Of a stretch of 64,000 nt of DNA, positions 44,014 through 58,728 are shown in pieces. Origin of the DNA: Pseudorhodoferax soli (GTDB lineage Bacteria > Pseudomonadota > Gammaproteobacteria > Burkholderiales > Burkholderiaceae_C); NCBI RefSeq assembly GCF_003337555.1, contig NZ_QPJK01000005.1:1-64000 (forward strand), given 5' to 3'. The translations under genes and the position numbers were made by a program. Position 1 is the stretch's first letter. Each line of letters starts with the position of its first letter. A model generated the notes under the pieces. The model was not told the DNA's origin. It worked only from the letters and a program-made list of their open reading frames with translations, and searched no databases.

Positions 44014-44050
44014 CACAATTCGGACTCCCATTTCGTACAGGAGCCCCAGC

Positions 44051-44632: not shown

Positions 44633-44653
44633 GGGAGCCCTGCGACCCCACAG

Positions 44654-44676: not shown

Positions 44677-44784
44677 CGCGCCTGGGTGGCCAGGGGGGCC
44701 CCGGGGGCCCATGGGGGGAGTTCGCGCGGCTTCGCGGGCACAGGAGGTCCCGCGAATTTTTCAGGGGGAAAATTGGACCGCGTG

Positions 44785-45051
44785 TCAGCGTAGCGACGTG
44801 ACTCCGGGAATCGGCGGCGCGGCTGGAGGAGTCGGGCTCACATCGGGCAGGCCCACGCCCGAGCACTTCCCAGTAGCGGCGTTGTAGGTGACACGGCCCG
44901 GTCGGCGGGCTAGGCCGCCGAGCAACCGACAGCCAGCGGGGAGGTAGTCCATAACGCCTAGGCCCTCGGGGCCCTCATAGAGCGCGTCGGCGCTCTCATC
45001 ATCTTGTGCAACTTGCAGGCTGTTGCCGCGGACACGTACAGCGTAGTACAT
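44785..45051 (-). CDS. Hypothetical phage-like protein
   Basis: 88 residues: MYYAVRVRGNSLQVAQDDESADALYEGPEGLGVMDYLPAGCRLLGGLARRPGRVTYNAATGKCSGVGLPD, with a Pro-rich tail. No family was recognised. It is the last gene of the leftward block that begins with the 885-residue protein, separated from the preceding gene by 45 bases. Two small beta-rich halves are suggested by the sequence. Confidence 0.6.
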   Translation of the reverse strand: MYYAVRVRGNSLQVAQDDESADALYEGPEGLGVMDYLPAGCRLLGGLARRPGRVTYNAATGKCSGVGLPDVSPTPPAAPPIPGVTSLR

Positions 45052-45096
45052 GAGTGTTCTTTCAATCGGTGGCGGACCTCAGGCCCGCCGGGTTTC

Positions 45097-45492
45097 TCAG
45101 TGCCCGCCCCGTCGCTCCAAGCGCATGCGCTCGGGCCTCAGGTCTAGGCAGTCTTCCATGTGGATCACGTCGCCATCCTGGGCACCCAGGATCAACGCGG
45201 CCACGCTATAGGTGTGGTCCTTGATCGGCTTGCGGCCGGGCCCCAGGGCATACGCGCGGACTTCGCCGTCTTCGTAGACCCAGCGTGTCCCGGTCAAACC
45301 ATAGGCACCCACCAAGCGGTGGTGATCGCTGGTGCGCAGCATCACGCGCATACTTGGATGCCCCTCGACAGACACATGCGCGGTCCCGTCCGGGTCGTGC
45401 CGAGTGCCGAAGGCGGCCGCGTACGTGCGCCCATTGAGCGCACGCGGGGCGAGCGCCCCGTAATTGCGGCTCAGAGTTGCATAGCCACCCAT
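45097..45492 (-). CDS. Hypothetical phage-like protein
   Basis: 131 residues: MGGYATLSRNYGALAPRALNGRTYAAAFGTRHDPDGTAHVSVEGHPSMRVMLRTSDHHRLVGAYGLTGTRWVYEDGEVRAY, ending LRPERMRLERRGGH. Family unknown. Its ATG overlaps the previous stop by one base (TGATG), a pattern repeated along this block, so it is co-translated with its upstream genes. Gly/Tyr/Arg-rich composition and position suggest a virion or tail accessory part. Confidence 0.65.
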   Translation of the reverse strand: MGGYATLSRNYGALAPRALNGRTYAAAFGTRHDPDGTAHVSVEGHPSMRVMLRTSDHHRLVGAYGLTGTRWVYEDGEVRAYALGPGRKPIKDHTYSVAALILGAQDGDVIHMEDCLDLRPERMRLERRGGH

Positions 45493-45725
45493 CAGCGGCC
45501 ACCTACGCGGAAACGCACGTCCCGACTGCCTGGGCCCACGACCGTGACACGCTCTGCGTTGTCCAAGGTCTGATCCGCCATGGCTCCAGCTTCGTCAACG
45601 CGTCGCGCCCATTGGCCCTGCGTCATGGTCGTGTTCGGGGTCGCCACGAACTGCAGCGCACCCGTGATGCGGCTTTGACGGAAGCCACTGGGCTGCACGG
45701 GGTTACCGTTGGAATCGAAGTGCAT
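45492..45725 (-). CDS. Hypothetical small phage-like protein
   Basis: 77 residues from ATG 45725: MHFDSNGNPVQPSGFRQSRITGALQFVATPNTTMTQGQWARRVDEAGAMADQTLDNAERVTVVGPGSRDVRFRVGGR. No family was recognised. It is joined by TGATG overlaps to the genes on both sides, which is strong support that all three are real and expressed together. Confidence 0.65.
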   Translation of the reverse strand: MHFDSNGNPVQPSGFRQSRITGALQFVATPNTTMTQGQWARRVDEAGAMADQTLDNAERVTVVGPGSRDVRFRVGGR

Positions 45726-46204
45726 CAGGCGTTCCTCGGCAGGCTCTTGTGTTGCTGCGTGGGATTCAGCGGGTGCTCGGGGTGCCTCGGGTCGTCCTTG
45801 GTGATCGTGCCCGGGCGCAAGGGCGCAGGGGCGGAACTGGACGTGCAACCCATACCGAACTGAATGCGGGACAGGTGGTCATGCTCCAGGCGGACCATGA
45901 TGGGCGCGAAATCGCCGCCGGTCTCCAGGACCGTGCGCAGACCTCGGAGATCCTCGCTGAGCCGTTCATGTGCGGCCGGCAAGCTGGCAAGCATCTGGAC
46001 CACGAGGTCTAGGGCCTGCGGCTTGGTTAGGGCCATGGCTTGAACGCCGAGCACCAGCGAGCGAAGCGGATCAGCGATGGCCTTTGCTTCCAGGTACCTT
46101 GCGGCCTCGGGCGTGTCCGCGTAGATCGGACCGGACTCGGTCTCGATGGTCGGGGCGCCTTTGTCGGCGACGGTGGAAATCTTGAACATGCTGGGCGCCT
46201 TCAC
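45725..46204 (-). CDS. Hypothetical phage-like protein
   Basis: Up to 159 residues. The GTG at 46204 overlaps the upstream TGA (GTGA); an internal ATG at 46189 gives MFKISTVADKGAPTIETESGPIYADTPEAARYLEAKAIADPLRSLVLGVQAMALTKPQALDLVVQMLASLP. The middle is helical and the C-terminus is Pro/His-rich (PRHPEHPLNPTQQHK). It sits between the pentapeptide-repeat gene and a 77-residue gene in an overlapping chain. Function unknown. Confidence 0.65.
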   Translation of the reverse strand: MKAPSMFKISTVADKGAPTIETESGPIYADTPEAARYLEAKAIADPLRSLVLGVQAMALTKPQALDLVVQMLASLPAAHERLSEDLRGLRTVLETGGDFAPIMVRLEHDHLSRIQFGMGCTSSSAPAPLRPGTITKDDPRHPEHPLNPTQQHKSLPRNA

Positions 46205-46836
46205 GCTACTGCTTCGGGGTTGAACTGGGCGGCGAACTTCTGGGCGTTCTCGATGGAACTGCCCGCGGCGACGCAGCGGGTCCCGGCCTTGATGTGCTCG
46301 GGCATGCTGCTTTGCGCCAGGATCACCTCGCGGTCGTCCACGCTGCGCAGGTCGGCATAGGCCAGGTCTGCGCCGCGGAAGTCAGCGCGAGCAGTGCGCA
46401 CGGACGACCAGCGAGACCGCGGGGCCACCAGGTCACGCGCAGAGACACCGCGGAAGTTCACGGCAGTGAACACGGCCTCGGTCGCATCCGCGCCGTTCCA
46501 TAGAGACCCGGACAGGTCGCAGGTCGTGAACGCGGCGCCGTGCGCCTTTACGCGCCCGAACAGGCTGTAGCTCAATGCGCAGTTGTCGAAGCTGGCGCCG
46601 GCCATCTTGGAGCCGGACCAGTTCACGCCAACGGCGGAACAGTTGACCAGCTTCAGGCCCTCGTAGTGGCCCTCGCTCAGGTCCATGCCATCCAGGCTCA
46701 GGAAGTGCAGCGCCTCGCCGGTTCGCGCAGCGTGCTCGATGGCCGCACGGCGGGCCACAGGTTCAGATGGGTTCCCGGAGATGCGAACACTCCAGGGTGT
46801 GCCGCCTGGGTAGCGGCTGAGAAAGGTGATGATCAT
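46201..46836 (-). CDS. Pentapeptide-repeat protein
   Basis: 211 residues from ATG 46836 (an ATG at 46860 would add 8). Residues about 45-165 form A(D/N)LxX-type repeats: LDGMDLSEGHYEGLKLVNCSAVGVNWSGSKMAGASFDNCALSYSLFGRVKAHGAAFTTCDLSGSLWNGADATEAVFTAVNFRGV and FRGADLAYADLRS. Such repeats fold into a right-handed quadrilateral beta-helix. In phages they occur in fibres, and elsewhere in gyrase-protecting DNA mimics. This one lies in the virion-like block, so a structural part is the more likely reading. Confidence 0.8.
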   Translation of the reverse strand: MIITFLSRYPGGTPWSVRISGNPSEPVARRAAIEHAARTGEALHFLSLDGMDLSEGHYEGLKLVNCSAVGVNWSGSKMAGASFDNCALSYSLFGRVKAHGAAFTTCDLSGSLWNGADATEAVFTAVNFRGVSARDLVAPRSRWSSVRTARADFRGADLAYADLRSVDDREVILAQSSMPEHIKAGTRCVAAGSSIENAQKFAAQFNPEAVA

Positions 46837-46955
46837 TGGTGGTGTGGTGCAAGGTGCCATGCGAAGCGCATGGCGGCTACAGCGCCATTGCGGCGGTGTC
46901 GGGATACGCGGCGACTCTTGGCGGTCGACGGCGCGGCTGACAGAAAACGGGCAGG

Positions 46956-46992
46956 CAAAAAGAAGCCCCCTGAGCCTTGCGACACAGGGGGT
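46956..46992 (-). terminator. Rho-independent terminator, leftward
   Basis: Read on the minus strand, a 7-bp stem (ccccctg / caggggg, 46966-46972 with 46985-46991) is followed by cttcttttt. It would stop leftward transcripts from the 885-residue gene before the pentapeptide-repeat gene, implying a separate promoter for the latter. Confidence 0.75.
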
Positions 46993-47506
46993 TCATGGAG
47001 TTGCCTTGCCCATCGCCCACCAGCGATGGACGGTTGGGGTACGTGGCGGGCCTTGCGGCCTGCTGACCATCTCTGAAAGGGGTACGGCGAAGCCGGATCA
47101 GGGATGGTCTTGGGTGTCCTGAAGATGCTTAGGACTACTCTGAGAGTTGTTCTTCAAGACCGTAAACACTGAGATACGAAGGGATCAACCCAAGGTTCTC
47201 AAGCTCATCAGGCTCTTTGTGTTTGACCCTTCGATGTCTTCAAGAAGACTCAAGGTTTCGCCTTCGGCGAGACCCCCCAGAGCGCAAGTCGTGCTCGCGC
47301 ACGACACGGTGGAGGTCGAACGGGTTTCAGTGCGGCCTCGGGGGCCAGTAGCTGGGGAGGTGGGGTCAGGCCTCGTCCAGCGAACTTCTGCGCGTTCGCC
47401 CATGTCGGCCATGGGAGCCTCTTCGTTTCGCCGGGTGGCGCCGTGAAGACACGGGGGTGACAGGGTGAAGTGATGGCCCCTGTCAGGCCTGGGAGTGGTC
47501 GGGACC

Positions 47507-47623
47507 TAGGGTCCTTCTACCACCTAGCCTTTTATTCGTTTGTTTCGCGAAGCCAGGGTGCACAACGGTCGGGCCGTGCATAGGGTCTCTCTTACCACCT
47601 GCGGATTTATTCGTTTGTTTCGC
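47507..47623. repeat. Two copies of the element's dispersed repeat
   Basis: Copies lie at 47507-47548 and 47581-47623. They share taggst-type starts, yaccacct, then ttattcgtttgtttcgc identically at the end (the last 17 bases match). On the minus strand both encode, in one frame, AKQTNK[S/R]xGG[K/R]R. Related shorter copies occur at 50450, 50934 and 50969. Confidence 0.65.
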
Positions 47624-47698
47624 TGGACCCGATGCGCCCCAGGGATCACGATGTATCCCCCGGGGACGCTGGGTCACTATGGGCTTGCCCCGATGGCC

Positions 47699-50356
47699 TC
47701 AGGGCCGCGCGAAGGCGACCGGGTGCTTTTGGTGCTGAACGGCACCCGTCACCGGATCCGCGTTCGCTTGCCACACCTTGATCTCCGCTTTGCGGGCTTC
47801 GCCCTGCTGGTGCAGTTGCTCGGCCGCCGCACGTTCGTCGCCAACCAGTCGATAGCCGTAGGCAAATCGGTAGGTGTTGGCGCCTTCACGGGTCGAAGCG
47901 CCGCGGATCACGTGGACCCCAGGCGGCAAGATGCCAGCCAAGAAGCTGTCGGCTTCGGCAGGGGACTTCGGGATCACTTGGTCCTTCCCGTTCAGGTGGA
48001 CGGTTTGGCCGCCGAAAACTGCAAGCGGGACTTGTCCAGTCTTCATGATCGGCATTAGGCCTGGCTTCATGTCCGGCAGCGCCAAGTAGACTCGGGAGGC
48101 CGCTGCGCCGCTTTGCCGGGTCTGGCGACCCTCGGCCACCTTGGAGCGATCTGGGTTGAGCCCGTCGATGAACTCATCCGCGAAGCTGTCGTCTGCCGGG
48201 TCGAGACCCAGAAGGCCGCTAAAGGTCTTCACGATGGCCGGGAGGTCTTTGCGCACGAATGTCGCGTGCGGGTCCTCCTCCTGTCCAAAGGCGTTGACGA
48301 TCTTGGTTCCGGCATAGACCTTCCGACCACCATAGGTGGCAATGGGGTCCTTGAGCTGCCGGCCTTTGCCCGCATAAGGGTCCGGGATGTACCGCAGCAC
48401 TCCACCCTGAGCCGAGATCGGTACAGCCTCGGCCGCAACGGACTTCGCTGCCCAGTCCGCCGCTTGCGACAGGTCAGGCTTCCCGCCGGCTGGTAGATTG
48501 GCCTGCTGCTCGTAGGCGTGGCGTGCCGTGAGTCGGTACAGCTTGTCTTGTAAGGTGGGGTGCAAGTTGACACGAGGATTGAAGATGACCCCGTCGTGGC
48601 CGCTGGCCTTGGTCAGTGCCTTTGCGGCTCGTCGATCGATCTCGTCCTTCGCGGCAAACTCCTTCAGTTCAGGATCGCGCAGAGCATCGGCCCAGTCGAT
48701 ACGAGTCGGGAGCGTAGCCTTGTGTCCGCGCTGCTCCGCGCCGGCATCGGCCGCCACAAGTTGCACGGCGGTTTCCAGGCCGCCCGCGTCCCTAGCGCGG
48801 GTCAGGATGACATCGAACCGCGCACGTGCCTTGTCGTCACGCAGCAGCGACCGCAAGAACTGCTCGCCGCCTGGGGTGTCCTTGAGGGCGGATGCGCCTG
48901 TGACAGCGATCATCATGCGTTGCGGGTCGCCGCTCATCAGCGCATCCGAGAACTGGGCCGCGGTGTTGTCGTCGACGGCGAAGCCGAAGGCGTCCGGTCG
49001 AGATCCCAAGAGCCGACCGAACTGCCCCGCGCTCTGTCGACTTGCCAGGAAGTCATAGCCGCCGCCGGCCTGCTGGGCCGCGGCAAGGTCGGGATAGCGT
49101 TCTGCGAACCCGGGCAATTGCATGATGGTGTTGACGGCAGGAATGAACGACTTCTGGATGGTCGAGTTGAACTCAGGTTCCTTCGCGGTGCCGTTGGACA
49201 GCACGCGGCGCAGCGAGCCACCGTTTTGACCCAAGAAGGCTTGGACGATGGAGTTCGCTTCCGCCTGGGTCTGCAGGGCCGAACGGGCGCCCGCGTGACC
49301 GCTTGCGCGGTCATCAAGGCCAGCGGTCAGCCATGGGAATTGACCGCGGCCGACACCATGCCGGTTATCGACATCTGCCGCGCGACGTATGAAGCCCAGG
49401 TATTCCTGAACTGGCATCAGGGTCCCGGCGTTCCTGTAGTTCGCCTGGGCAGCTGCATAGTCGGTGTTGACTTGCTCAACCTCGCTGCCTGCGGCCACAG
49501 ACTTGATTTGATTCGTGCGTTGCCATGCGGCCTCGGTGATCTCGCGATAGACATCGGGATTGCGCTGGGCGAAGCCGGACTCGCGCATAGCGGCCAGGGT
49601 GGAATTGGCGTGACCGGGGTTGTAGATGGCGGTCTTCAGGACACCAGCAAAGAACTGGTCGGCCTTCGCGACATCGCCTTTCATCAGACCAAGAGCCTCG
49701 CCGTAAAAGCCGTCCACTTGGCCCGTGGTCACGCCGCCTTGCTCCATCATTTTCCGCGTCAGCGACTTGCTGATGGTCTCTGCAATGTTGCTTTCGGCGG
49801 TCTGCGCGATCAGTTCACGCTTCTGCGCCAACAGCTGGTCAGCTTGGCGCTTGACGCCCCATGCAACCCGCCCGTCAATGGCCGGGTCGCCCGTGCCGCC
49901 CGCGACTTGCTTGCGGACGAAGTCGGTAGCGAAGGCATCTAGGTCCTGGTCTGGCGTGTTAGGCAGGTCACGAATGGCGGTCCCGAGGTCCGTGGAGATA
50001 CGCGAGGCGGTCTCGTCGGCCACTGCGACGTCATAGGCGCCTTTGTATGCCTGGAAGCCATTCAGCGCCTCATTGCGCGGTGCGCCCGATCCAGCTTCGG
50101 CCAGGCCCTGGGCCTTGCGCGTTTCGTTCTGGCGCTCGATCTCGACCAGTTCTTCGCGGTGCTGGATCTCGCCAATGGATTCGATGGTCTTGGCCGTAGT
50201 GCCGAAGAAAGAGCCGAGGGCAGAGCCGATGGCGCTCAGTTGTGCCCCTTGGCCTTGCACGGTGGCTTGGGTGGCTTGGTGCTGCTGGGTGCGCACGGAG
50301 GGCGCGGGGTTCACGCTGAAGCCGCGCGGGCCGGCGGATGGTTGTTGTGTGGTCAT
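47699..50356 (-). CDS. Large phage protein, candidate internal virion protein
   Basis: 885 residues, soluble, start MTTQQPSAGPRGFSVNPAPSVRTQQHQATQATVQGQGAQLSAIGSALGSFFGTTAKTIES. It is rich in helices, Gln and Ala through about residue 600 (TKTIESIGEIQHREELVEIERQNETRKAQGLAEAGSG) and more globular towards the end (PEADSFLAGILPPGVHVIRGAS, YRFAYGYRLVGDERAAAEQL). Length, composition and the helical N-terminus resemble internal core proteins of podophages (T7 gp15-like), but I see no diagnostic motif. The start precedes a good spacing but weak Shine-Dalgarno. A leftward terminator lies about 700 bases downstream. It is the largest gene of the element. Confidence 0.75.
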   Translation of the reverse strand: MTTQQPSAGPRGFSVNPAPSVRTQQHQATQATVQGQGAQLSAIGSALGSFFGTTAKTIESIGEIQHREELVEIERQNETRKAQGLAEAGSGAPRNEALNGFQAYKGAYDVAVADETASRISTDLGTAIRDLPNTPDQDLDAFATDFVRKQVAGGTGDPAIDGRVAWGVKRQADQLLAQKRELIAQTAESNIAETISKSLTRKMMEQGGVTTGQVDGFYGEALGLMKGDVAKADQFFAGVLKTAIYNPGHANSTLAAMRESGFAQRNPDVYREITEAAWQRTNQIKSVAAGSEVEQVNTDYAAAQANYRNAGTLMPVQEYLGFIRRAADVDNRHGVGRGQFPWLTAGLDDRASGHAGARSALQTQAEANSIVQAFLGQNGGSLRRVLSNGTAKEPEFNSTIQKSFIPAVNTIMQLPGFAERYPDLAAAQQAGGGYDFLASRQSAGQFGRLLGSRPDAFGFAVDDNTAAQFSDALMSGDPQRMMIAVTGASALKDTPGGEQFLRSLLRDDKARARFDVILTRARDAGGLETAVQLVAADAGAEQRGHKATLPTRIDWADALRDPELKEFAAKDEIDRRAAKALTKASGHDGVIFNPRVNLHPTLQDKLYRLTARHAYEQQANLPAGGKPDLSQAADWAAKSVAAEAVPISAQGGVLRYIPDPYAGKGRQLKDPIATYGGRKVYAGTKIVNAFGQEEDPHATFVRKDLPAIVKTFSGLLGLDPADDSFADEFIDGLNPDRSKVAEGRQTRQSGAAASRVYLALPDMKPGLMPIMKTGQVPLAVFGGQTVHLNGKDQVIPKSPAEADSFLAGILPPGVHVIRGASTREGANTYRFAYGYRLVGDERAAAEQLHQQGEARKAEIKVWQANADPVTGAVQHQKHPVAFARP

Positions 50357-50449
50357 GCTGTTGCTTGGATGGATGGGCAGGCGAGTCCGTCAAAGCAGCG
50401 ACGGGACAGCAATGGGGCGCAAGGTGCGCCGGGCCGCGTGCTGCGGCGG

Positions 50450-50477
50450 TAGGGTTGTCACCCCCTGCGGGTTTGTT
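50450..50477. repeat. Dispersed repeat copy overlapping a stop codon
   Basis: Carries tagggttgtcaccccctgcg then ggtttgtt. It covers the TGA stop (50458-50460) of the gene at 50458-50922, which therefore ends in TRRG. Confidence 0.65.
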
Positions 50478-50922
50478 CTTCGGGGGTGCTCGGCGACAAG
50501 CTGCGGGCCGCCTTCTTTACCGCGTAGGCCGCCCGCTTCTGCGACAAGATGGCATCGCGGTTCGCTGCATAGTGCTTGGCGTTGCTGGCGGCTTGGGCGG
50601 CCCGGTTCGCCGCCGCAGCCTCACGCCGCCGTGCCAGGATGGCATCCCGGTTTGCTGCGCGGTACCTGGCCTGTTGCGCACGAACGGCGGACTTGTTGTC
50701 CGCGTAGTACGTCGTCGCAACGGCGGCCGAAGCGGACGCGGGGGGCTTTGGAGATGAGGAGGTGCGCCGGGTGGCTCGGCGTGCGCTAGGAGCCTCGGGC
50801 GCTGCTGGGAGGCTCGGCGGCGGTCGCAGCGCTTTCGGCTGCGTCAGGCCCAGCCGGGAACGCAAGGCCGTCAAGCTGGTTTGCAATGCGTCGGGTTCGC
50901 TGGGTGCAGTGGGAATGGTCAT
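50458..50922 (-). CDS. Basic Ala/Arg-rich repeat protein
   Basis: 154 residues, not assigned. After a Pro-rich N-terminus (LRPPPSLPAAPEAPSARRATRRTSSSPKPPASASAA) there are repeated units of the form YxAxNRDAI(L)xxxRxAxA: YYADNKSAVRAQQA, RYRAANRDAILARRREAAAANRAAQAAS, KHYAANRDAILSQKRAAYAVKKAA. The units resemble the basic helical tails of phage zinc-ribbon proteins such as the one at 43528, but here no Cys ribbon is present. A nucleic-acid-binding role is likely by charge; the exact function is unknown. Its 3' end lies in a dispersed repeat. Confidence 0.6.
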   Translation of the reverse strand: MTIPTAPSEPDALQTSLTALRSRLGLTQPKALRPPPSLPAAPEAPSARRATRRTSSSPKPPASASAAVATTYYADNKSAVRAQQARYRAANRDAILARRREAAAANRAAQAASNAKHYAANRDAILSQKRAAYAVKKAARSLSPSTPEEQTRRG

Positions 50923-50933
50923 GTGGTGGCCTG

Positions 50934-50996
50934 TAGGGTTGTCACCCCCTAGCGGTTTTATCGGCAGGTAGGGTGTTCACCCCCTGCGGATTTGTT
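50934..50996. repeat. Two adjacent dispersed repeat copies
   Basis: Copies at 50934-50961 (tagggttgtcaccccctagc, then ggttttat) and 50969-50996 (tagggtgttcaccccctgcg, then gatttgtt). They are separated by seven bases. The first overlaps the stop codon of the antirepressor remnant. Confidence 0.65.
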
Positions 50997-51170
50997 GCTG
51001 GCGGAGGCTCGGCGACCAAGGTGCCCACCGTGGCCGCCGGCTTCAGGGCAGCGATCTGTGCGTCCTTGGCCTCCAGGGCTTCGGCTTGAGCCCTCCAGCT
51101 CCTGCCAGCGGTCGATGATCTTGGCCCGCGTGGTCACGGAGTAGCCTGAGACCAGGATGAGGGTCCCAGC
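50942..51170 (-). pseudogene. Remnant of a phage antirepressor (Rha/KilA-type tail), frameshifted
   Basis: On the minus strand, TLILVSGYSVTTRAKIIDRWQELE matches the phrase typical of phage antirepressors (xLVSGYSVxxRAKIIDRWQELE). After ELE one extra G shifts the frame; removing it restores AQAEALEAKDAQIAALKPAATVGTLVAEPP and runs to a TGA at 50942-50944. Upstream, an in-frame TAA cuts the match, so the N-terminal DNA-binding part is gone. Only about 70 codons remain of a roughly 200-270 residue gene. It indicates loss of part of the phage control region. Confidence 0.75.
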
Positions 51171-51220
51171 GCTTTAGGTTGGCACATAGCGACCAAGCGA
51201 GGTTCTACGACTTGTGGTAT

Positions 51221-51241
51221 CTGTTACAACAGGTGCCTGTT
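51221..51241. promoter_or_regulatory. Overlapping palindromes CTGTTACAACAG / AACAGGTGCCTGTT before the PARIS-like gene
   Basis: Three half-sites in a row (ctgtt, aacagg, cctgtt) form two perfect overlapping inverted repeats. The last one ends 31 bases before the ATG at 51273. The position fits an operator or a transcript hairpin for the ATPase gene. Confidence 0.5.
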
Positions 51242-51272
51242 TACTCGCCGGTAGTCCTTACCTCATATTGCA

Positions 51273-52874
51273 ATGACTTACCTACTATCGCTTCCCAATG
51301 CGGGAGAGCCCAATAATATTCAACTGAACGCAGGAGAATCGATCTTTCTACTGGGCGCGAATGGTGCAGGAAAATCAAGCCTAATGCATCATTTTTATCT
51401 TCAGCACCATGGCAATGCCGAGCGAATAACAGCTCATCGGCAAATGTGGTTTCAGAATGCCGCTGTTGGAATTTCTCCGGCCGAGAGGGTAAATATCGAC
51501 ACTAGCCTTCGACAGTCCGACATAAACATAAATTCCCGGTATCGAGACGATTATGCGCCTTATAGGTCAAATATCGGCGTATCGGACCTCATGGCCGAGG
51601 AGAATCGTAGGGCGCGCGCGATTACCGAGCTCCTGACACGCGGCGACTTAGATGCTATTTCGAAAGAAACTGCCAAAAGTTCGCCAGTTGCGCGTATAAA
51701 CAACCTTTTTAGCGTAGCAAATCTCCCGATTTCAGTCGCGATCGATGGACGCGACAACCTCGTTGCACGACGCGCCACTACCGGTGCCGAATATAGCATT
51801 CAGCAATTGTCTGATGGTGAGAGAAATGCGCTTATCATTGCCGCGATGGTGCTTTCCGCAAAACCGGGTCGTCTTATCTTGATCGATGAGCCAGAGCGGC
51901 ACCTGCATCGATCAATTATTGCGCCTTTTCTTTCGATGTTATTGGCGGAAAGGAATGACTGCGCATTTGTAGTATCAACTCACGACTTGCACCTACCGCT
52001 TGACACGTCCGCAACAAAAACCTTGTTGGTACGCGGCTGCTCATACTCTGGAGAACACCCCGTCCGGTGGGAAGCCGACCTTTTTCTACCCGGAGAGGCG
52101 CTGGACCGCCAGATCCAAGAGGATATCCTTGGGGCAAGAAAGAAAATCCTATTTATCGAAGGCGATGAAGTCGGAAGTATGGATCTTGCTCTTTATTCCG
52201 TACTATTTCCTGGCTTCTCGGTTGTCGCAAAGCGGCGCTGCAAAGACGTAATTCAAGCAACCAAAGGAATAACGCAGTCGGAAGAGCTTCACTGGATAAA
52301 CGCGCATGGCTTGATAGACGGGGATTCAAGGTCGGCCGATGAGATCCAGAGCCTGAACCAGGATAAGGTGCACACCCTACCGCTCTATTCCGTTGAATCT
52401 GTGTATTATCACTCAACGATCATTTTTGCAATAGCGGAGAAGATGTCGCAGATTTTACCAGGGGACGCACAGCTTATGGGCCGTAAAGCCATTTCTGCGG
52501 CACTGGACGTCCTGAAGCAAAGTGCAGCCGGTCTGGCCGAACGCTCTGCGGAGCGGGCGCTACGAAATGAGTGGGAACGCAACGCACCCACGATGAACGA
52601 CGTTCGCGCGGGCGTCCCATTTGAACGGCGCCTCAATGTGGAGCAGGTTGTAGAACAGCACAAACTTCTGCTGAATGAATTTGTCCAAAATCGAGACTGG
52701 GACGGCATATGCGGACGGTTCAATATTAAGAAATCCGGCATAAAGAAAACGATAGCAAACGCCCTAGGCTTTACAGATTCAAAGCACTATGAAGCAGCGG
52801 CCATTAAAATTCTCAACGCTGACGATGGCATGCTTGCTCGGACACAGGCCTTGGTTGGCGGCGTGCCCGCCTAA
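51273..52874 (+). CDS. Fused AAA ATPase - DUF4435/TOPRIM-like protein; probable single-gene PARIS-type defence system
   Basis: 533 residues. The N-terminal ABC/AAA-15-type ATPase has Walker A GANGAGKSS (28-36), signature LSDGERNAL (about 179) and Walker B LILIDEPERHLH (about 200). The C-terminal half (from about 290) resembles DUF4435: KKILFIEGDEVGSMD (Glu296) and HGLIDGDSRS (Asp349, Asp351) give the E..DxD pattern of a TOPRIM nuclease, followed by TLPLYSVESVYY. This pairing matches the PARIS system (AriA ATPase plus AriB TOPRIM effector), which is known in two-gene and fused single-gene forms. The gene is markedly AT-richer than its surroundings and stands alone, rightward, against leftward neighbours: likely acquired cargo. 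The start lacks a strong Shine-Dalgarno. Confidence 0.8.
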   Translation: MTYLLSLPNAGEPNNIQLNAGESIFLLGANGAGKSSLMHHFYLQHHGNAERITAHRQMWFQNAAVGISPAERVNIDTSLRQSDININSRYRDDYAPYRSNIGVSDLMAEENRRARAITELLTRGDLDAISKETAKSSPVARINNLFSVANLPISVAIDGRDNLVARRATTGAEYSIQQLSDGERNALIIAAMVLSAKPGRLILIDEPERHLHRSIIAPFLSMLLAERNDCAFVVSTHDLHLPLDTSATKTLLVRGCSYSGEHPVRWEADLFLPGEALDRQIQEDILGARKKILFIEGDEVGSMDLALYSVLFPGFSVVAKRRCKDVIQATKGITQSEELHWINAHGLIDGDSRSADEIQSLNQDKVHTLPLYSVESVYYHSTIIFAIAEKMSQILPGDAQLMGRKAISAALDVLKQSAAGLAERSAERALRNEWERNAPTMNDVRAGVPFERRLNVEQVVEQHKLLLNEFVQNRDWDGICGRFNIKKSGIKKTIANALGFTDSKHYEAAAIKILNADDGMLARTQALVGGVPA

Positions 52875-53012
52875 TCGAGTTAGTCAAAGCAACTAACTTC
52901 AACCCGGCGAGTGTAGGAGCTTCGTATTCTATTAGCCCCTGCCATGCCTCCACGACCGAGAGCCCGAGCGCTGAGCACCCCAATGACAAGCCCCACTAGC
53001 CGCCTTTCCAAT

Positions 53013-53393
53013 TCAGGGTTCCCGGCGGTCTCGGGCGCCGCGCTCCGCGGGGCGACCCGGGGCACTTCGGGCTGTTAGGGCTGGCCGGGCTAGCTCCTCG
53101 ACCGCATACGGATCTTTGTTGTACCTAGCGCAGTAGAAGTCCGGCAGGTTATAGAACGCGAAGCGGTCGGCAAGCGCCGCCTTCGGCATGCGAAGCGCAG
53201 CGGCCCAGCGTTGCAAGTCGTGCATTGGGAGGGCAGTCACTCCCCGCTCAACCTGCGACACCATGTTTGCTTCGATGCCTAAGCGTTCCGCGATGTCGCC
53301 TTGAGTGAATCCGAGGTCTTGCCTGCGCCCTTTGAGCGTCGCTCCGAATCGCATTCTGAGCATCAGGGCAGATGGGGGCAGTCGGTCGCGCAT
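53013..53393 (-). CDS. XRE-family repressor-like protein
   Basis: 126 residues from ATG 53393, preceded by ggagg. The helix-turn-helix (about 17-70) is LRMRFGATLKGRRQDLGFTQGDIAERLGIEANMVSQVERGVTALPMHDLQRWAAALRM. The C-terminal part (FYNLPDFYCARYNKDPYAVEELARP) and Arg/Pro-rich tail have no recognised effector or peptidase fold. It is read leftward, opposite to the gene at 53985, and a 13-base motif repeated before this gene and the next upstream one suggests it controls this region. A lysogeny-type repressor is the natural reading. Confidence 0.88.
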   Translation of the reverse strand: MRDRLPPSALMLRMRFGATLKGRRQDLGFTQGDIAERLGIEANMVSQVERGVTALPMHDLQRWAAALRMPKAALADRFAFYNLPDFYCARYNKDPYAVEELARPALTARSAPGRPAERGARDRREP

Positions 53394-53422
53394 TGGTCCT
53401 CCATTGCTGTAGAGAACCACAC

Positions 53423-53435
53423 AGTCTGATGCGCA
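53423..53435. promoter_or_regulatory. Repeated 13-base motif AGTCTGATGCGCA before the XRE gene
   Basis: It lies 30-42 bases before the XRE start codon, inside an inverted repeat (cacagt .. actgtg, 53420-53442). An identical copy stands before the next leftward gene (53903-53915). Likely a repressor operator. Confidence 0.55.
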
Positions 53436-53549
53436 AACTGTGGGGGATTTAGTCCGTTTGTCGCGTTTCATCCTCAATTGGGAGAACGCTGCCTGTTGTC
53501 CTACGGGATCGGCGCGACGTTCGTAGGGGGAACGCAACGCATAGGCACA

Positions 53550-53852
53550 TCACGCGGTAACGGCTTTTGACTCGACAGCAGATGCAAGCACGTTCAAGAA
53601 CTCGAATACCGATTGGTCCCAGTCGGCACTGATGCGCTTGACGTACAAAGCTTGGTTGTCCGCGGTCATGATGAGGACGCGGGAATCTTGGAGGTCGAGA
53701 GTAACCGTTGCGTCCAGTTGTCCCACTTCCAGAGAGATCCAGGGCGCCTCTGCGGCCTCGTTGAACTCGTGCTCAACCACTGCGATGGTTTCGCTCGCCT
53801 CCAGGCGTGCCAGCAACGAATGCAGGGACAGGGGAGCGGTGATGGCGTTCAT
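53550..53852 (-). CDS. Hypothetical phage-like protein
   Basis: 100 residues from ATG 53852, with aaaggaaag upstream: MNAITAPLSLHSLLARLEASETIAVVEHEFNEAAEAPWISLEVGQLDATVTLDLQDSRVLIMTADNQALYVKRISADWDQSVFEFLNVLASAVESK. Small alpha-beta protein; no family recognised. It is read in the same direction as the XRE gene, 156 bases upstream of it, and has the same 13-base motif at 51-63 bases before its start, so both are probably controlled together. Confidence 0.7.
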   Translation of the reverse strand: MNAITAPLSLHSLLARLEASETIAVVEHEFNEAAEAPWISLEVGQLDATVTLDLQDSRVLIMTADNQALYVKRISADWDQSVFEFLNVLASAVESKAVTA

Positions 53853-53902
53853 GGTGCTTTCCTTTGCGTTGGGTGTCGACAACTGAATTATGCAATTGCG
53901 AA

Positions 53903-53915
53903 AGTCTGATGCGCA
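53903..53915. promoter_or_regulatory. Second copy of AGTCTGATGCGCA
   Basis: Identical to 53423-53435. It lies in the 132-bp divergent region between the leftward gene ending its start at 53852 and the rightward gene at 53985, where one operator could control both. Confidence 0.55.
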
Positions 53916-53984
53916 GCAATGCCCGAGCATTGTGCAGGGACTTATGCATAGGCAAAACGCTTCACTTCCCGGCAGAATTCGTAC

Positions 53985-54203
53985 ATGGAACAGGAGAAAC
54001 CAAAGCGCACCGGGCGGCCCAGGGTCATCCAGGGGGAGAGCGCAACCATGATGATCCGCCTGAGCCGAGATCAGCGCGACAAGGTCGACCGCCTGGGCGG
54101 CGCCGCGTGGCTCCGGGCGAGGATCGATGAGGCCCCGGAGCCTGGGGAGGACTCAAGGGCGCGGGGACCTTGGCTTGAGAGGACGAAGGAAGCAGCGGAT
54201 TAA
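53985..54203 (+). CDS. Small hypothetical protein, possible ribbon-helix-helix
   Basis: 72 residues: MEQEKPKRTGRPRVIQGESATMMIRLSRDQRDKVDRLGGAAWLRARIDEAPEPGED. The core TMMIRLSRDQRDKVDRLGGAAWLRARI resembles small Arc/RHH-like phage regulators (strand, then helix-turn-helix). It lies divergent from the XRE-side genes and could be an early/Cro-type gene. Start at ATG 53985 after a short, weak Shine-Dalgarno (gtacatgg context). Confidence 0.6.
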   Translation: MEQEKPKRTGRPRVIQGESATMMIRLSRDQRDKVDRLGGAAWLRARIDEAPEPGEDSRARGPWLERTKEAAD

Positions 54204-54347
54204 GAGACCGCAGCTATGCGCTGCCCATTCCTTGGGCACCGCAGCGCAGCCGCGCCAGGCAACGCTTACGGCAGTTCTGCATGGGGTTAGGCACAGGGTT
54301 GTCCACGGGGCGCAGGGACAACATGAGGCCATCCGGCCTAGGCGCGT

Positions 54348-54572
54348 TCACCTTTGTCTCTGGGTTCGCGCCTTTGATTTGAACTGGCGCAGTGCTTCTA
54401 TCAAAGCCCGAGCTTCATTGACCGCCGCGGCCCCGTGCTCTTGATGCCAGCCCATAGACCAGGCAGCATGCAAAAGGCCTGGGGATTCGGGGTAGGGGTT
54501 CGCCGGAGATGGCGTACCGCCGTGGAACGCCGCCCGACCTTCCAAAACAGCTTCGTCAACGCAGGTGGCCAT
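54348..54572 (-). CDS. Small RMF/CrpP-like protein, copy 1
   Basis: 74 residues from ATG 54572: MATCVDEAVLEGRAAFHGGTPSPANPYPESPGLLHAAWSMGWHQEHGAAAVNEARALIEALRQFKSK. The pattern EGRxAFxxG...NPY......W..GW resembles ribosome modulation factor/CrpP-type small proteins (GxxAxxxG..NPY). Copy 2 at 55925 is clearly homologous (identical across PGLLHAAWSMGWHQEHG). An upstream Met at 54608 would add 12 residues, but copy 2 supports this start. The partner gene at 54636 is duplicated along with it. Confidence 0.7.
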   Translation of the reverse strand: MATCVDEAVLEGRAAFHGGTPSPANPYPESPGLLHAAWSMGWHQEHGAAAVNEARALIEALRQFKSKARTQRQR

Positions 54573-54635
54573 GTAGAACACGGGCAAGCCCCGTGCCCAT
54601 CCTGGCACCTAGACGAATGGGTGGAAAAGCTGCGT

Positions 54636-54824
54636 CTAACCCGAACAGGCAGATAGCATTGCGCGTAGTTTTTGCCGGGCGTCCGCTCGCAGCGATGTGG
54701 CGTGTTCCTGTTCAGCGGGCGTAGCGGGGATGCCGGTCAGACCTCCCCGAAACACGCGCCGTTCCGCGCGCTCAGCGACAAGATGGGCAGCCTTCCAGGC
54801 CAAGCTAGCTTGACAACAGGTCAT
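54636..54824 (-). CDS. Small helical protein, copy 1
   Basis: About 62 residues from ATG 54824: MTCCQASLAWKAAHLVAERAERRVFRGGLTGIPATPAEQEHATSLRADARQKLRAMLSACSG. It is homologous to the gene at 56200 (AWKAAHL..AERR(V/I)FRG.L.G..ATP.E.E.A..LR..A..KLRAM..ACS). It lies 63 bases upstream of the RMF-like gene, as in copy 2 (35 bases). Function unknown. Confidence 0.65.
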   Translation of the reverse strand: MTCCQASLAWKAAHLVAERAERRVFRGGLTGIPATPAEQEHATSLRADARQKLRAMLSACSG

Positions 54825-55029
54825 CCGGATTACCTCAATGATGTGCCTTCTACTGCTTGGCAGGCGCGGCACGAGGGGGTCTGCACAAGAGCCCAAGCTT
54901 GAGGCTGGTCACATGCGCAGAAGGTAGGTCGACGCCGCGACCGCCGTGAACTTAGGTGCTCGACCGGCCAAGGGACAACCCTTGCGACGATTTAGCGCCA
55001 GTCGTTACGCCGTCGTCTACATTGACCGC

Positions 55030-55287
55030 ATGCACCACTTCCCATCCGCGCTGATCCACCTGGAAGCCATCCGAGTGGCCGCAGCGGTTGCGGACGACCT
55101 GGAAGTCCGGGTGGCGGCGTTGGAACTGGTCATGCGGCTTGAGATGGACTACCACCAGCAGCGGCTGAGTAGGGCGTCCATGTTGCTGGCCCTGGACGCA
55201 TTCCGGGGACTCCCAGGGACCGAAGACAGCATCAAGGCGCTGGAGGCTATGGCGGCCCGCAGCGTCTCCGGCTGGCATGGGCTATAG
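55030..55287 (+). CDS. Hypothetical small helical protein
   Basis: 85 residues from ATG 55030: MHHFPSALIHLEAIRVAAAVADDLEVRVAALELVMRLEMDYHQQRLSRASMLLALDAFRGLPGTEDSIKALEAMAARSVSGWHGL. Strongly helical with an LxxxxALELVxRLExD pattern; no family recognised. It converges with the gene at 55290, whose stop is three bases away. Confidence 0.55.
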   Translation: MHHFPSALIHLEAIRVAAAVADDLEVRVAALELVMRLEMDYHQQRLSRASMLLALDAFRGLPGTEDSIKALEAMAARSVSGWHGL

Positions 55288-55289
55288 CT

Positions 55290-55562
55290 CTAGGAGGCGG
55301 TGAATCCTGTAGCCGGCGTGTGGGTCGCAGTGAACACCAAGCGCCCTCGGTCCCCTTGGTTCCGCACAGTGAATTTGGTCAATCGGAACTGCTGGCCGTG
55401 GAACTCGGCATCAAGGGGCCCCAGCATCATTAGTTGGGCGACGATACGCAAGGCTTCAGGACTTCCCAGAATCAGCACGTCCAAGCACTCGGCTTCCGAG
55501 CGTTGGGCAGTACATGAGGTCACGCCCGACACATTGAAGATGCGAAGCGCATGGAACGCCAT
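55290..55562 (-). CDS. Hypothetical small phage-like protein
   Basis: 90 residues: MAFHALRIFNVSGVTSCTAQRSEAECLDVLILGSPEALRIVAQLMMLGPLDAEFHGQQFRLTKFTVRNQGDRGRLVFTATHTPATGFTAS. Two-layer alpha-beta character; no family recognised. Convergent with the preceding helical gene. Confidence 0.55.
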   Translation of the reverse strand: MAFHALRIFNVSGVTSCTAQRSEAECLDVLILGSPEALRIVAQLMMLGPLDAEFHGQQFRLTKFTVRNQGDRGRLVFTATHTPATGFTAS

Positions 55563-55685
55563 TGCATGCTCCCAGTTGGGCGCCGCGTTGTTCTAGACGG
55601 GCGCTGTCTCAGCTTCCATTGCTTGGCCTGGCGGGTTCGCACGGTGCCACGCTGTCGCGTTGCTCCGTTGACATAACATCGGTGT

Positions 55686-55928
55686 ATGTCTATGCGGCCT
55701 ATGCAATTCTTGAAATCCATCGCGAATGCTGCATTTCCGCTGCACGTCGATGATCAAGACGCAGTGCGCGATATTCAAGCGCTTCGCGCGGCGGGCTTTA
55801 TTGAAGCCTCGGTGTCCGCGCCGAGCGCCGAGGACGGAAATCGTTCATCGGTTGTTCACAGAATTGCGCCAGAGGGCCGCGCGGCATTGGCGCGAGAACG
55901 CATGAGGCCACCACGGTTTCCGCTCTAA
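55686..55928 (+). CDS. Small hypothetical protein, possible winged helix
   Basis: 80 residues: MSMRPMQFLKSIANAAFPLHVDDQDAVRDIQALRAAGFIEASVSAPSAEDGNRSSVVHRIAPEGRAALARERMRPPRFPL. The run QALRAAGFIEAS..HRIAPEGRAAL resembles the recognition half of a small winged helix. A second start at 55692 is possible. Its stop overlaps the stop of the convergent gene at 55925 by three bases. Confidence 0.55.
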   Translation: MSMRPMQFLKSIANAAFPLHVDDQDAVRDIQALRAAGFIEASVSAPSAEDGNRSSVVHRIAPEGRAALARERMRPPRFPL

Positions 55929-56164
55929 GTACGCCCGATCTCCGAGTGCTGGGACGCATGCTGCATCGATCTGAACGCCCTCACGGCTTTTGTCAGCACC
56001 CGGGACTCCCGCAAGGCGGTAGACCCATGCTCCTGGTGCCAGCCCATAGACCAGGCAGCATGCAGTAGGCCGGGAGAGAAAGCATACGGATTCGCGGCCG
56101 ACTGAAAGCCAGCGTGAAAAGCTTCGCGCCCCTCAATCACAGCTTGGTCAACACTTTCGGCCAT
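55925..56164 (-). CDS. Small RMF/CrpP-like protein, copy 2
   Basis: 79 residues from ATG 56164: MAESVDQAVIEGREAFHAGFQSAANPYAFSPGLLHAAWSMGWHQEHGSTALRESRVLTKAVRAFRSMQHASQ. Homologous to the gene at 54348, with the core EGREAFxxG..SAANPY fully intact here (copy 1 has PANPYPES). It probably represents the better-preserved copy. RMF-like proteins dimerise ribosomes or bind the anti-Shine-Dalgarno region; whether this one does is unknown. Confidence 0.72.
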   Translation of the reverse strand: MAESVDQAVIEGREAFHAGFQSAANPYAFSPGLLHAAWSMGWHQEHGSTALRESRVLTKAVRAFRSMQHASQHSEIGRT

Positions 56165-56199
56165 CTCGGCCCCGGGCAAGCTGCGTGCCGAGTTGGACC

Positions 56200-56415
56200 T
56201 TAATGAGCCAGTGGGAAGCGGGCCGCGTCGGCGCTACAGGCGGCAACCATTGCGCGTAATTTCTCCTGGGCCTCTAGTCGCAAGGTCTTGGCGACCTCCC
56301 GCTCTATAGGCGTCGCCTGAGCACCGGCCAGGACACCGCGAAAAATACGCCGCTCTGCTAGATCGGCGGCAAGATGCGCGGCCTTCCACGCTCGGCTGCA
56401 TTCAAGGTAGCTCAT
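56200..56415 (-). CDS. Small helical protein, copy 2
   Basis: About 71 residues from ATG 56415: MSYLECSRAWKAAHLAADLAERRIFRGVLAGAQATPIEREVAKTLRLEAQEKLRAMVAACSADAARFPLAH. Homologous to the gene at 54636, lying 35 bases before the RMF-like copy 2. The conservation of both genes and order shows a duplicated cassette. Confidence 0.68.
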   Translation of the reverse strand: MSYLECSRAWKAAHLAADLAERRIFRGVLAGAQATPIEREVAKTLRLEAQEKLRAMVAACSADAARFPLAH

Positions 56416-56546
56416 CCGTGCCTCCAAGGTCGGCGCCCGCTAGCTTTGATGGCGAGCACGGAAGAGTCTGCAAAGGTGCGCCCACTGATTTGCAGTCCGC
56501 CCACTAGGCTGCGTGTAGGCCGATGCGCCAAGCGCCATGTCTGTGT

Positions 56547-56822
56547 TTACTGGCCCCTGTCTGCGTACCACACGTCGATAGCACGTCCTGCCTGGGCCAT
56601 CGCGGCATCAATGGCGTCCCTCCGCTCCCCGTGAACTCTCTGCATCCTGAACGTCATGTTGTGGTCGCACAGCGCCGTGTGAGCGATCCCGGCGCACTCC
56701 CAGCCGTCCGGCGTGGTCTCAAGCCATAACAAGACCACGAAGTCCCGATAGGTGGAGCCGAACGAGGGCGGCGGTTCGCCTGTGAGCTCCAGGGGGCCTT
56801 GGGTGATTGCCAGGGACTTCAT
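56547..56822 (-). CDS. Hypothetical protein next to the integrase
   Basis: 91 residues: MKSLAITQGPLELTGEPPPSFGSTYRDFVVLLWLETTPDGWECAGIAHTALCDHNMTFRMQRVHGERRDAIDAAMAQAGRAIDVWYADRGQ. Alpha-beta, no family recognised. Its start is 15 bases after the integrase stop in the same direction, so it could be co-transcribed with it, in the place where an excisionase-like or accessory gene may occur; the sequence is not like known excisionases. Confidence 0.6.
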   Translation of the reverse strand: MKSLAITQGPLELTGEPPPSFGSTYRDFVVLLWLETTPDGWECAGIAHTALCDHNMTFRMQRVHGERRDAIDAAMAQAGRAIDVWYADRGQ

Positions 56823-56837
56823 GGGGTGCTGGGATGC

Positions 56838-58532
56838 TTAGGAGGCGCTGCGAGTCGGGTAGACGCGCGGGAGGTCCAGGAAGGGGAACAGCGGTAGTCG
56901 CAGCGCCTCCAGAACCGTGACCGGGCGCACATGGGTGTAAACCTTGCGACCGGTGCTTCCCGTTGCTGCGTGGCCTGTCAGAGCATCTGCAGTCGCCTCG
57001 CCAACGTGGTGTGCAGCCAGGGCGGTGCGGATGGTGTGACGGAACTTGTGGAAGCCCTCCAATGGCCCAGGCGGCAGCCCCAGGTCTTTGCGATACCCAC
57101 GCACCCATTCGCCCATCACGTCGCCCGGGCTAGTCTTGCCGCCGCGGTGTAGCGAGGGGAACAACTTGATGTCACCAGCGGCCTGGCGGTCGCGCACGAA
57201 ATCCATGAGTCCCAGGCGCAGGACCTCGGGAGCGATAGGGACCTTGCGGATGCCCGCTTCGGGGTTCTTGATAGTCGAGCCTTCCGCGTCTTCGTGGATA
57301 GATACCAAGGCAACCCTGTTTTCGGTAAGCACGTCGGCCACCTCAAGCTGTCCCAGTTCGCCAATACGTGAGCCTGTCCAAAGGCCCAGCAACATCACGT
57401 AGTACGCGTCCCATGGCTGCACTTTGTAGATGGGGCGGTAGGCACCAGCGGTGTACAGAGTAGAGCCGAACAACGCCGTCAACTGCTCGGCCGTGAACTC
57501 CGCGCGTCCTTTGCTGTCCGTTACGTCGAACTCCAGGCCGGCCCATGGATTGCGTTCAAGTTGGCCATATTCGGTTGCAACGTTCAGCAGGGACTGCAAC
57601 GCCAGCCAGTAGTTCTGACCGGTCTTCTGCTTGAAGCCTCGGGCTGGGTCGCGCAGCCAGTCACGCAAACGAGCACCATCGGGCCGCGTCAGCTTGCCCA
57701 GGGGCTTGTCGTGGCCTGCCTCTTTCAGTAGAAGCAAGGCCCTTTCCGTGCGCTTCAGTGCATCGGGCTTTGGGCGGCGCTTGGCCTCCCAGTTCACGAG
57801 CGCGTCCCGCAGATGCAGCGGGGTGGCCTTGAGGGCGCTGGTGTCGCTGGGCGGCTCAGGAAGCGCCGGGGTGTCGACCACCACGCCGGAGTCTCGTTTG
57901 ATCGACACTTCACAGGCCCGCGCATGGGCCCGCAGGCAAGCTTCCAAAGTCGCGGCACCTTCGGCGCTGTCCCAGTCCACCGTGAGACCCAGAGATCGCG
58001 CGGCCTGCGATGCCAGCGGGATCATTGCCTGAAGATCGCCGGACGCAATTGCGTGCTGAACGTACTCCAAACGCGTACGGTTGAAGGCTGCACGCTGGGC
58101 CACCACCGACGCGGGCAAGGGAGCCAGCCGGGAGACCTCGGGGTAGTCCGGGCGGCTGTCGATGGGGCCAGAGTGAACGCCGGAGACCATCCGCACCGTG
58201 GTGTGTCTGTCGGCCCTTCGGCCTTCGTCCCATGCCAGTTGCCCCGCATAGACAGCATCCGCGATGATGGTCTGCAGGGCCGCAGTCGGGCGCACTGCCG
58301 GCACCGCAAGGGCGCGTCGCTTTTCGAGGAATTCGCCTTCAACCTCGGCCCGTCGCGCCATGCCCCGGACGCGTGCTTCGGCCCGGTCGCTGGTCTGCAG
58401 CGAGACACAGCTATGTGTGGTGGCGAGGGCACCAGATGCGGTACGCGGGTAAAGGTGCCGTAGATCCTTGGGTATCACCAGGCGGCACCAGAACATGGAA
58501 CCACGCGGGAACACGCCGGCTGGAAGTCGCAT
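56838..58532 (-). CDS. Tyrosine-type site-specific integrase
   Basis: 564 residues from ATG 58532 (an in-frame GTG at 58568 could add 12). Long N-terminal arm-binding/DUF6538-like part (MRLPAGVFPRGSMFWCRLVIPKDLRHLYPRTASG), a core-binding SAM-like domain around LRDALVNWEAKRRPKPDALKRTERALLLLKEAG, and the catalytic domain with Arg389 (TGSRIGEL), His495/Arg498 (FHKFRHTIRT), a late His in LTGHAA, and Tyr532 (VYTHVRP). The gene points away from the tRNA and is the likely enzyme that recombined attP with the tRNA-Arg 3' end. Length is above average because of the extended N-terminus. Confidence 0.95.
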   Translation of the reverse strand: MRLPAGVFPRGSMFWCRLVIPKDLRHLYPRTASGALATTHSCVSLQTSDRAEARVRGMARRAEVEGEFLEKRRALAVPAVRPTAALQTIIADAVYAGQLAWDEGRRADRHTTVRMVSGVHSGPIDSRPDYPEVSRLAPLPASVVAQRAAFNRTRLEYVQHAIASGDLQAMIPLASQAARSLGLTVDWDSAEGAATLEACLRAHARACEVSIKRDSGVVVDTPALPEPPSDTSALKATPLHLRDALVNWEAKRRPKPDALKRTERALLLLKEAGHDKPLGKLTRPDGARLRDWLRDPARGFKQKTGQNYWLALQSLLNVATEYGQLERNPWAGLEFDVTDSKGRAEFTAEQLTALFGSTLYTAGAYRPIYKVQPWDAYYVMLLGLWTGSRIGELGQLEVADVLTENRVALVSIHEDAEGSTIKNPEAGIRKVPIAPEVLRLGLMDFVRDRQAAGDIKLFPSLHRGGKTSPGDVMGEWVRGYRKDLGLPPGPLEGFHKFRHTIRTALAAHHVGEATADALTGHAATGSTGRKVYTHVRPVTVLEALRLPLFPFLDLPRVYPTRSAS

Positions 58533-58570
58533 CTTGTCACCCTTCAAATCAGGTTGATCAAGTGCCACTA

Positions 58571-58591
58571 GTGATACACCCCGCTGATACA
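58571..58591 (-). promoter_or_regulatory. Candidate integrase arm-type sites (right end)
   Basis: On the minus strand, TGTATCAGCG (58582-58591) is followed by TGTATCAC (58571-58578), two tandem copies just upstream of the integrase. The first is identical to the left-end copy at 42174. They may also regulate the integrase promoter. Confidence 0.5.
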
Positions 58592-58651
58592 GCCTTGTGG
58601 CTGGAAGCCCGCATGCAGCCTCGTTTCCCTCTGAAAACGACTATTTTAGGC

Positions 58652-58677
58652 TGGCCTGCCCGGAGGGGATCGAACCC
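58652..58677 (-). repeat. attR within tRNA-Arg(TCT)
   Basis: 26 bases identical to attL (42112-42137), forming the 3' end of the tRNA including the CCA. Because the element supplies this sequence, the tRNA stays functional after integration. Confidence 0.92.
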
Positions 58678-58728
58678 CCGACCCACAGCTTAGAAGGCTG
58701 TTGCTCTATCCAACTGAGCTACGGGCAG
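58652..58728 (-). tRNA. tRNA-Arg(TCT)
   Basis: A 77-base gene on the minus strand. The acceptor arm ctgcccg (58722-58728) pairs with cgggcag (58656-58662), followed by discriminator G and an encoded CCA. The D arm (gctcagttggatagagc), anticodon arm with loop CTTCTAA (anticodon TCT), and T arm with ttcgatc all fold normally. The 3' 26 bases are the attachment site of the adjacent element. Confidence 0.96.

Follow-up and report, generated by a model that had tools for sequence, protein, structure and literature searches.

A divergent single-chain PARIS-type protein carried by an integrated element of Pseudorhodoferax soli

Results

The window analysed in this study is a 64,000-nucleotide stretch of Pseudorhodoferax soli DNA. 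An intact 533-codon frame with an ATG start occupies positions 51273..52874 on the + strand and codes for a fused AriAB-type (PARIS) protein of 533 aa, the length given in the original prediction. Both flanking ORFs (50458-50922 and 53013-53537) lie on the - strand, the second one encoding a helix-turn-helix phage-type regulator that adjoins the fused gene. With a GC content of 50.7% against 68.1% for the window, the gene is AT-rich and oriented opposite to its neighbours, as had been claimed.

The N-terminal part (residues 1-272, 51273..52088) is an AriA-like ABC/AAA_21 ATPase domain, recognised by Pfam AAA_21 with 59.4 bits (cut-off 27) and visible in the AlphaFold2 model; AAA_15 scored 27.7 bits, under its 32.1 cut-off. 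The three ATPase motifs that had been reported as intact were all present on the + strand: Walker A GANGAGKS (residues 28-35, 51354..51377), the ABC signature LSDGE (residues 179-183, 51807..51821) and Walker B (residues 201-206, 51873..51890), which ends with D205-E206. They are followed by an H-loop histidine, H237 (51981-51983). The next domain (residues 290-395, 52140..52457) is AriB-like and of DUF4435/TOPRIM type. It matched Pfam DUF4435 with 35.6 bits (cut-off 27), a match that spans only profile positions 2-104 of 238, and it carries the acidic residues E296 (52158-52160), D349 (52317-52319), D351 (52323-52325) and E375 (52395-52397). Residues 396-533 (52458..52871) extend beyond the matched DUF4435 part and form a helical C-terminal region in the AlphaFold2 model of residues 276-533.

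Conservation of these residues was examined in an alignment of the window protein and 98 relatives, composed of + strand ORFs; identical rows L101 and L105 were dropped, and L003, L007, L011 and L012, whose gene lies on the - strand, were left out but are present in a 14-row alignment (A1). S180, E183, E206, H237, E296, D349 and D351 were each found in 99/99 rows, D205 in 98/99, E375 in 98/99 (one gap) and K34 in 93/99. The six rows gapped at K34 are short or start inside the domain (336-516 aa). The TOPRIM triad was likewise kept in 14/14 rows of A1, which partly holds the same sequences as the larger set. The acidic residues proposed beforehand (E296 and D349/D351) are thus strictly conserved.

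A further alignment (A2) comprised the window protein and 65 relatives whose length had been restricted to 533 +/- 59 at selection (523-581 aa). Lengths were recounted without this filter, and 72 of the 73 distinct full-length relatives measured 518-592 aa, the remaining one (L015) reaching 741 aa; L011 and L013 had initially been recorded at 674 and 661 aa. The compactness of the protein, previously taken as a possible sign of a divergent branch, must therefore be abandoned as such a mark since small size is usual in the fused family.

AlphaFold2 monomer modelling gave a mean pLDDT of 90.9 and a pTM of 0.66 for the full-length protein (66 sequences), and a pLDDT of 92.4 with a pTM of 0.87 for the C-terminal half (residues 276-533). 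A block of lower confidence appeared near residues 281-290.

Overlapping palindromes had been announced upstream of the gene. A 9-pair hairpin, listed as terminator-like, does occur at 51216-51237, together with one exact palindrome with 6-bp arms at 51228-51241, and the ensemble (51216..51241, + strand) is a candidate operator, leader or terminator-like element. The earlier claim is only partly upheld, however: the number of exact palindromes does not exceed chance, as 90/500 plain shuffles of the 92 upstream bases reach or surpass it. Region 50923-51272 displayed seven imperfect inverted repeats (reached in 16/200 shuffles), and five terminator-like sites were recorded in 50900-53050 versus 2.1 (sd 1.2) in shuffled sequences. 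On the + strand, the region ahead of the gene gave no sigma-70 promoter-like match. Two similar tandem inverted repeats, TAGGGTTGTCACCCCCTA at 50934-50951 and GTAGGGTGTTCACCCCCTGC at 50968-50987, immediately precede the - strand gene whose start is at 50922 and are possible operators.

The fused gene resides in an integrated element of 16.5 kb (42112..58677), bordered by two 26-bp repeats. The right copy (58652-58677) belongs to the integration target, a tRNA-Arg (tct) gene at 58652..58728 on the - strand, and the left one (42112..42137) is a distal copy of the tRNA 3' end, 26/26 identical. An empty site was found in a congener, where the sequence left of 42137 (89.9%, 1138 bases) meets the sequence right of 58652 (97.1%, 349 bases) on one contig, both flanks overlapping by exactly the 26 bp of the repeat. 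Carriage by an element, as stated in the original prediction, is thereby confirmed.

Other element genes lie on the - strand: a 576-aa tyrosine integrase (56838..58568; Pfam PF00589, phrog_1 4.7e-29), an Endonuclease VII-like protein (42917..43672; phrog_1035 2.7e-25) and an 885-aa protein (47699..50356). The latter displayed no PHROG match at 0.01 and no Pfam match at 0.001, and its relatives occurred in 2/298 other genomes of the family (E <= 1e-15). One of these relatives is flanked on one side by a tail protein and on the other by an internal virion protein that has an endolysin domain, and genes for connector, head assembly and major head proteins lie upstream of it; from this position, the 885-aa product can be given the probable identity of a gp15-like internal virion protein of a podophage. 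The scanned subset of element ORFs contained no recognisable capsid or terminase gene, which makes a reduced prophage or a satellite-like element the probable carrier. GC contents of the 885-aa gene (63.8%) and of the integrase gene (64.1%) exceed that of the fused gene, which suggests separate acquisition of the latter.

Three further element genes deserve mention. Two similar small proteins (54348-54608 and 55925-56179, both on the - strand) resemble ribosome modulation factor (PF04957), scoring 22.5 bits and 28.5 bits, respectively below and above the cut-off of 27.9. A third protein (46201-46860, - strand) has what we take, by eye, to be pentapeptide-like repeats and weakly matched PHROGs without known function.

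Relationship to PARIS was assessed at several levels. The dedicated test for AriAB fusions relied on PADLOC models, and the fusion model PDLC02982 matched the window protein with an E-value of 5.9e-56 (188 bits). The same model matched 66/66 members of A2, DUF4435 being recognised in 58/66. At the structural level, Foldseek ranked 8ux9_A, from the cryo-EM complex of PARIS, first among 872 PDB matches of the C-terminal half (E 4.1e-3, prob 0.99), none of which reached E 0.001. A TM-score of 0.35 and an rmsd of 14.9 over 285 columns make this a weak pass as a test of the AriB fold. 8ux9_A is a chain of 306 residues and chain B of the same entry is AriA; from this and its length, 8ux9_A should be AriB. 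Comparison by hhalign with AriBs from three two-gene loci of the host's order gave E 2.6e-5 over 120 columns (probability 74.6%), pairing E296 with the catalytic-type Glu of AriB, DxD with DxD, and YSVES with YSIEN. E26 is a TOPRIM catalytic residue of AriB (PMC12409363), and E296 would be its counterpart.

Other searches told against this relationship. The sequence profile of the C-terminal half found no AriB in the PDB; nor did one two-gene AriB used as a query, whereas a two-gene AriA from the host's order does find AriA there (3.6e-11). Full-length Foldseek returned SMC, Rad50, PtuA and Gabija ATPases, and no AriA, among the 50 matches listed, and with the whole-protein profile the retron Ec83 ATPase (1.8e-12) scored above AriA (4.3e-9). 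We attribute these misses to the fact that ABC heads are so common. Plasmid searches with two AriB queries retrieved four records and one record, none from E. coli.

The PARIS assignment is supported by the DUF4435, AriAB and 8ux9_A matches, and the refuting outcome named in the original prediction, a C-terminal half unrelated by profile to DUF4435/TOPRIM, did not occur.

Relatives were broadly distributed. Single-sequence scans revealed none in the genomes or in viral contigs but alignment-based scans did, and among at least 588 candidate stretches from bacteria and archaea the profile scan confirmed at least 210 relatives, the best 80 of which were kept. They span Pseudomonadota, Cyanobacteriota, Bacteroidota, Planctomycetota, Verrucomicrobiota, Chloroflexota, Actinomycetota and others. 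Predicted viral contigs contributed at least 10 loci among at least 600 candidates, one being an ATPase fragment only and two encoding the same protein as sequenced Sphingomonas and Tropicimonas genomes. Among plasmids, 51 records matched, 28 of them covering at least 80% of the query. Phage genome records yielded Oenococcus phage phi9805 only, in two records of the same phage, with 27.5% identity over 44% of the query.

Occurrence close to the host was patchy. Besides the window genome, a match was recorded in at least 1/99 host relatives (E <= 1e-15) and at least 7/368 genomes of the class (E <= 1e-25), while the AriAB model, with the best few candidates of each genome scored, matched 0/199 other genomes of the order at E <= 1e-30. 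DUF4435 was present in 5/249 other genomes of the order. Both the protein and the AriAB searches scored the best few candidates per genome, and their counts are therefore lower bounds.

A maximum-likelihood tree of 66 sequences placed the window protein on a lone branch (length 1.13), outside every well-supported set comprising half of the rows or fewer. Its nearest identity, 42%, was to a protein from a Burkholderiaceae MAG.

Discussion

Single-chain PARIS is already known and widespread, and the window gene is a genuine, divergent example. Single-gene fusions were described by Rousset et al. in 2022, with profiles for AAA_15+DUF4435 and AAA_21+DUF4435, the second of which corresponds to the pairing found here; ariAB, two-gene or fused, was reported in 5.2% of genomes (PMC9122126). 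The window protein shares with fused PARIS (AriAB, PDLC02982) a single chain in which the ATPase precedes DUF4435, as well as a mobile setting. Its divergence is apparent from the AriAB model (5.9e-56 versus 2.2e-162 for the best A2 member), from the 42% top identity, and from the loss of the RYPxRE[TS]-type C-terminal motif. The gene is probably best described as a single-chain PARIS protein of the AAA_21 type, the cargo of a phage-derived integrated element. Membership does not assure activity, however, since the two-gene PARIS of Salmonella D23580 was inactive against every phage tried (PMC11341690).

Comparison with two-gene systems reveals a shorter stretch inside the ATPase. From the Walker A Lys to the signature Ser, the 93/99 fused rows having both count 118-162 residues (143-159 in the 66 A2 rows), whereas three two-gene AriAs count 338, 346 and 360; the fused ATPase is thus about 200 residues shorter between these motifs than the three AriAs. 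The pattern E-x(51-55)-DxD-x(17-24)-E, its last Glu lying in Y-[SC]-[IV]-E-[NS], is common to the window protein and three two-gene AriBs, and the tail after that Glu measures 152-189 residues in fused proteins versus 181-204 in two-gene AriBs. The conserved H-loop lies 53-63 residues ahead of E296, which, together with the block of lower confidence near residues 281-290, indicates a short connection between nuclease and ATPase.

In the published model of two-gene PARIS, an AriA hexamer accommodates as many as three AriB, which depart and form dimers once triggered (PMC11455837, PMC12409363). The fused nuclease, by contrast, is tethered and hence in a 1:1 ratio with its ATPase; it cannot be lost without cutting the chain, and we infer that part of the switch must differ. 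Tentatively, and with somewhat less than an even chance of being right, fused PARIS of the AAA_21 type may license its TOPRIM domain in place inside the ATPase assembly, as the linker of about 20 residues, the 1:1 ratio and the roughly 200 fewer residues suggest, instead of releasing a free AriB dimer, and it may respond to a different class of trigger. For the window protein, a different trigger is plausible on sequence grounds because about 200 residues of two-gene AriA are missing.

By analogy with two-gene PARIS, the following scheme can be envisaged. The N-terminal ABC ATPase would act as an ATP-dependent sensor that keeps the C-terminal TOPRIM nuclease inactive. A trigger protein made by an infecting phage (anti-restriction proteins such as Ocr in two-gene PARIS) would rearrange the ATPase assembly and thereby switch on the tethered TOPRIM domains, probably through their pairing, given that AriB functions in dimeric form. 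To judge from the fused architecture alone, this activation would proceed without release of the nuclease. The active TOPRIM domain, with a metal site formed by E296, D349 and D351, would cut host RNA, most likely tRNA. Translation would halt and the infected cell would be sacrificed, sparing the resident element together with its kin.

The candidate RNA target offers a point against tRNA cleavage of the PARIS kind. AriB of E. coli cuts its best substrate, tRNA-Lys, at U36AAUC|A41, and tRNA-Asn with C41 is cleaved much less (PMC12409363). Positions 32-41 of the host tRNA-Lys(UUU) read CTTTTAATC-C. With C41 instead of A41, this tRNA may be a weaker substrate, provided that the fused enzyme shares the preferences of E. 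coli AriB. Residues 320-335 of the window protein are KRRCKDVIQATKGITQ, a segment examined for counterparts of K60/K64, the AriB lysines that hold the anticodon loop; in the alignment of the window protein with its 98 relatives, positions 324, 328 and 331 are variable.

OLD family nucleases and GajA have DNA as their substrate, and their domain order, ABC ATPase then TOPRIM, is identical to that of the window protein, which might accordingly cut phage or host DNA as class 1 OLD or GajA do and represent a separate OLD class. A review calls the relation of the AriAB fusion to the OLD classes unclear and leaves undecided whether it forms such a class (PMC10568477). OLD nuclease 6p74 did appear in the fold search of the C-terminal half, but at rank 40 (E 0.87), and GajA was retrieved in the profile search at profile positions 199-294, from the ATPase to the TOPRIM start. 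Yet it is AriAB and AriB models that match and the AriB fold that ranks top, while the PADLOC GajA model reached just 2.1e-7, on ATPase residues 170-237 only; no membership in an OLD/GajA-type TOPRIM group emerged from 6p74 or from a GajA match confined to the ATPase. We regard this DNA nuclease reading as unlikely. Resemblance to another single-gene ABC-TOPRIM system, IbfA/HEC-04, lies in size, domain order and mobile setting: IbfA has 518 aa, is encoded by plasmids R64 and pUA1135, and aborts infection by a P22-like phage, the pUA1135 version being the one tested (PMC12111858). We identified R64 IbfA with a 1557-bp gene for an AAA family ATPase that adjoins a ProQ-family gene, the arrangement given for pUA1135 in the same source (PMC12111858). 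In a single comparison it matched the window protein only over a 71-aa Walker A stretch (E 0.003), and the profile comparison aligned the ATPase half alone (6.4e-11); by contrast, a homologue from an E. coli 6 kb plasmid showed 31% identity to the window protein over 528 aa. IbfA was thus rejected as a close relative, its TOPRIM half being without significant similarity, and the HEC-04 model was not among the best 25 PADLOC matches of the window protein, direct comparison being made with R64 IbfA. An IbfA/HEC-04-type system is exceedingly improbable here.

Two readings without active defence were also considered. A housekeeping or regulatory ABC-TOPRIM protein finds a precedent in an archaeal OLD-family ATPase reported in cell cycle progression, apparently not in defence (PMC12796447), but the patchy distribution in host relatives and class genomes, the mobile location and a base composition unlike that of the host render it very improbable. 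Three observations favour decay: the element proteins scanned include no recognised capsid or terminase, the upstream region offered no + strand sigma-70-like promoter match, and the motif Y-P-[VI]-R-E-[TS], common in the family, reads F-N-I-K-K-S in the window protein. A dead relic on a decaying prophage is still decidedly unlikely, given an uninterrupted frame of 533 aa in which no catalytic motif has been lost.

A single-chain PARIS protein thus being the preferred reading, the locus on its own represents another putative defence gene borne as cargo by a phage-derived element. The literature examined mentions the fused form without dissecting it; no mechanistic study of fused AriAB turned up among the papers searched, which is no proof of absence. 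A compact one-gene PARIS would be a handy test case for the control of a TOPRIM tRNase without release from its sensor.

Around the relatives, a raw tally of the 142 nearest neighbour ORFs (ORFs above 900 aa left out) gave five integrases, four resolvases and four type I restriction specificity domains. On a Kocuria rosea plasmid (L014), a TIR-domain gene and an N-6 DNA methylase gene flank a fused AriAB homologue, and the three may form a defence cluster. Two mobilizable E. coli plasmids of 5-6 kb (L004 and L136) have four annotated features each, one of which is a fused AriAB homologue, and L004 also carries a toxin gene of the ToxN/AbiQ family.
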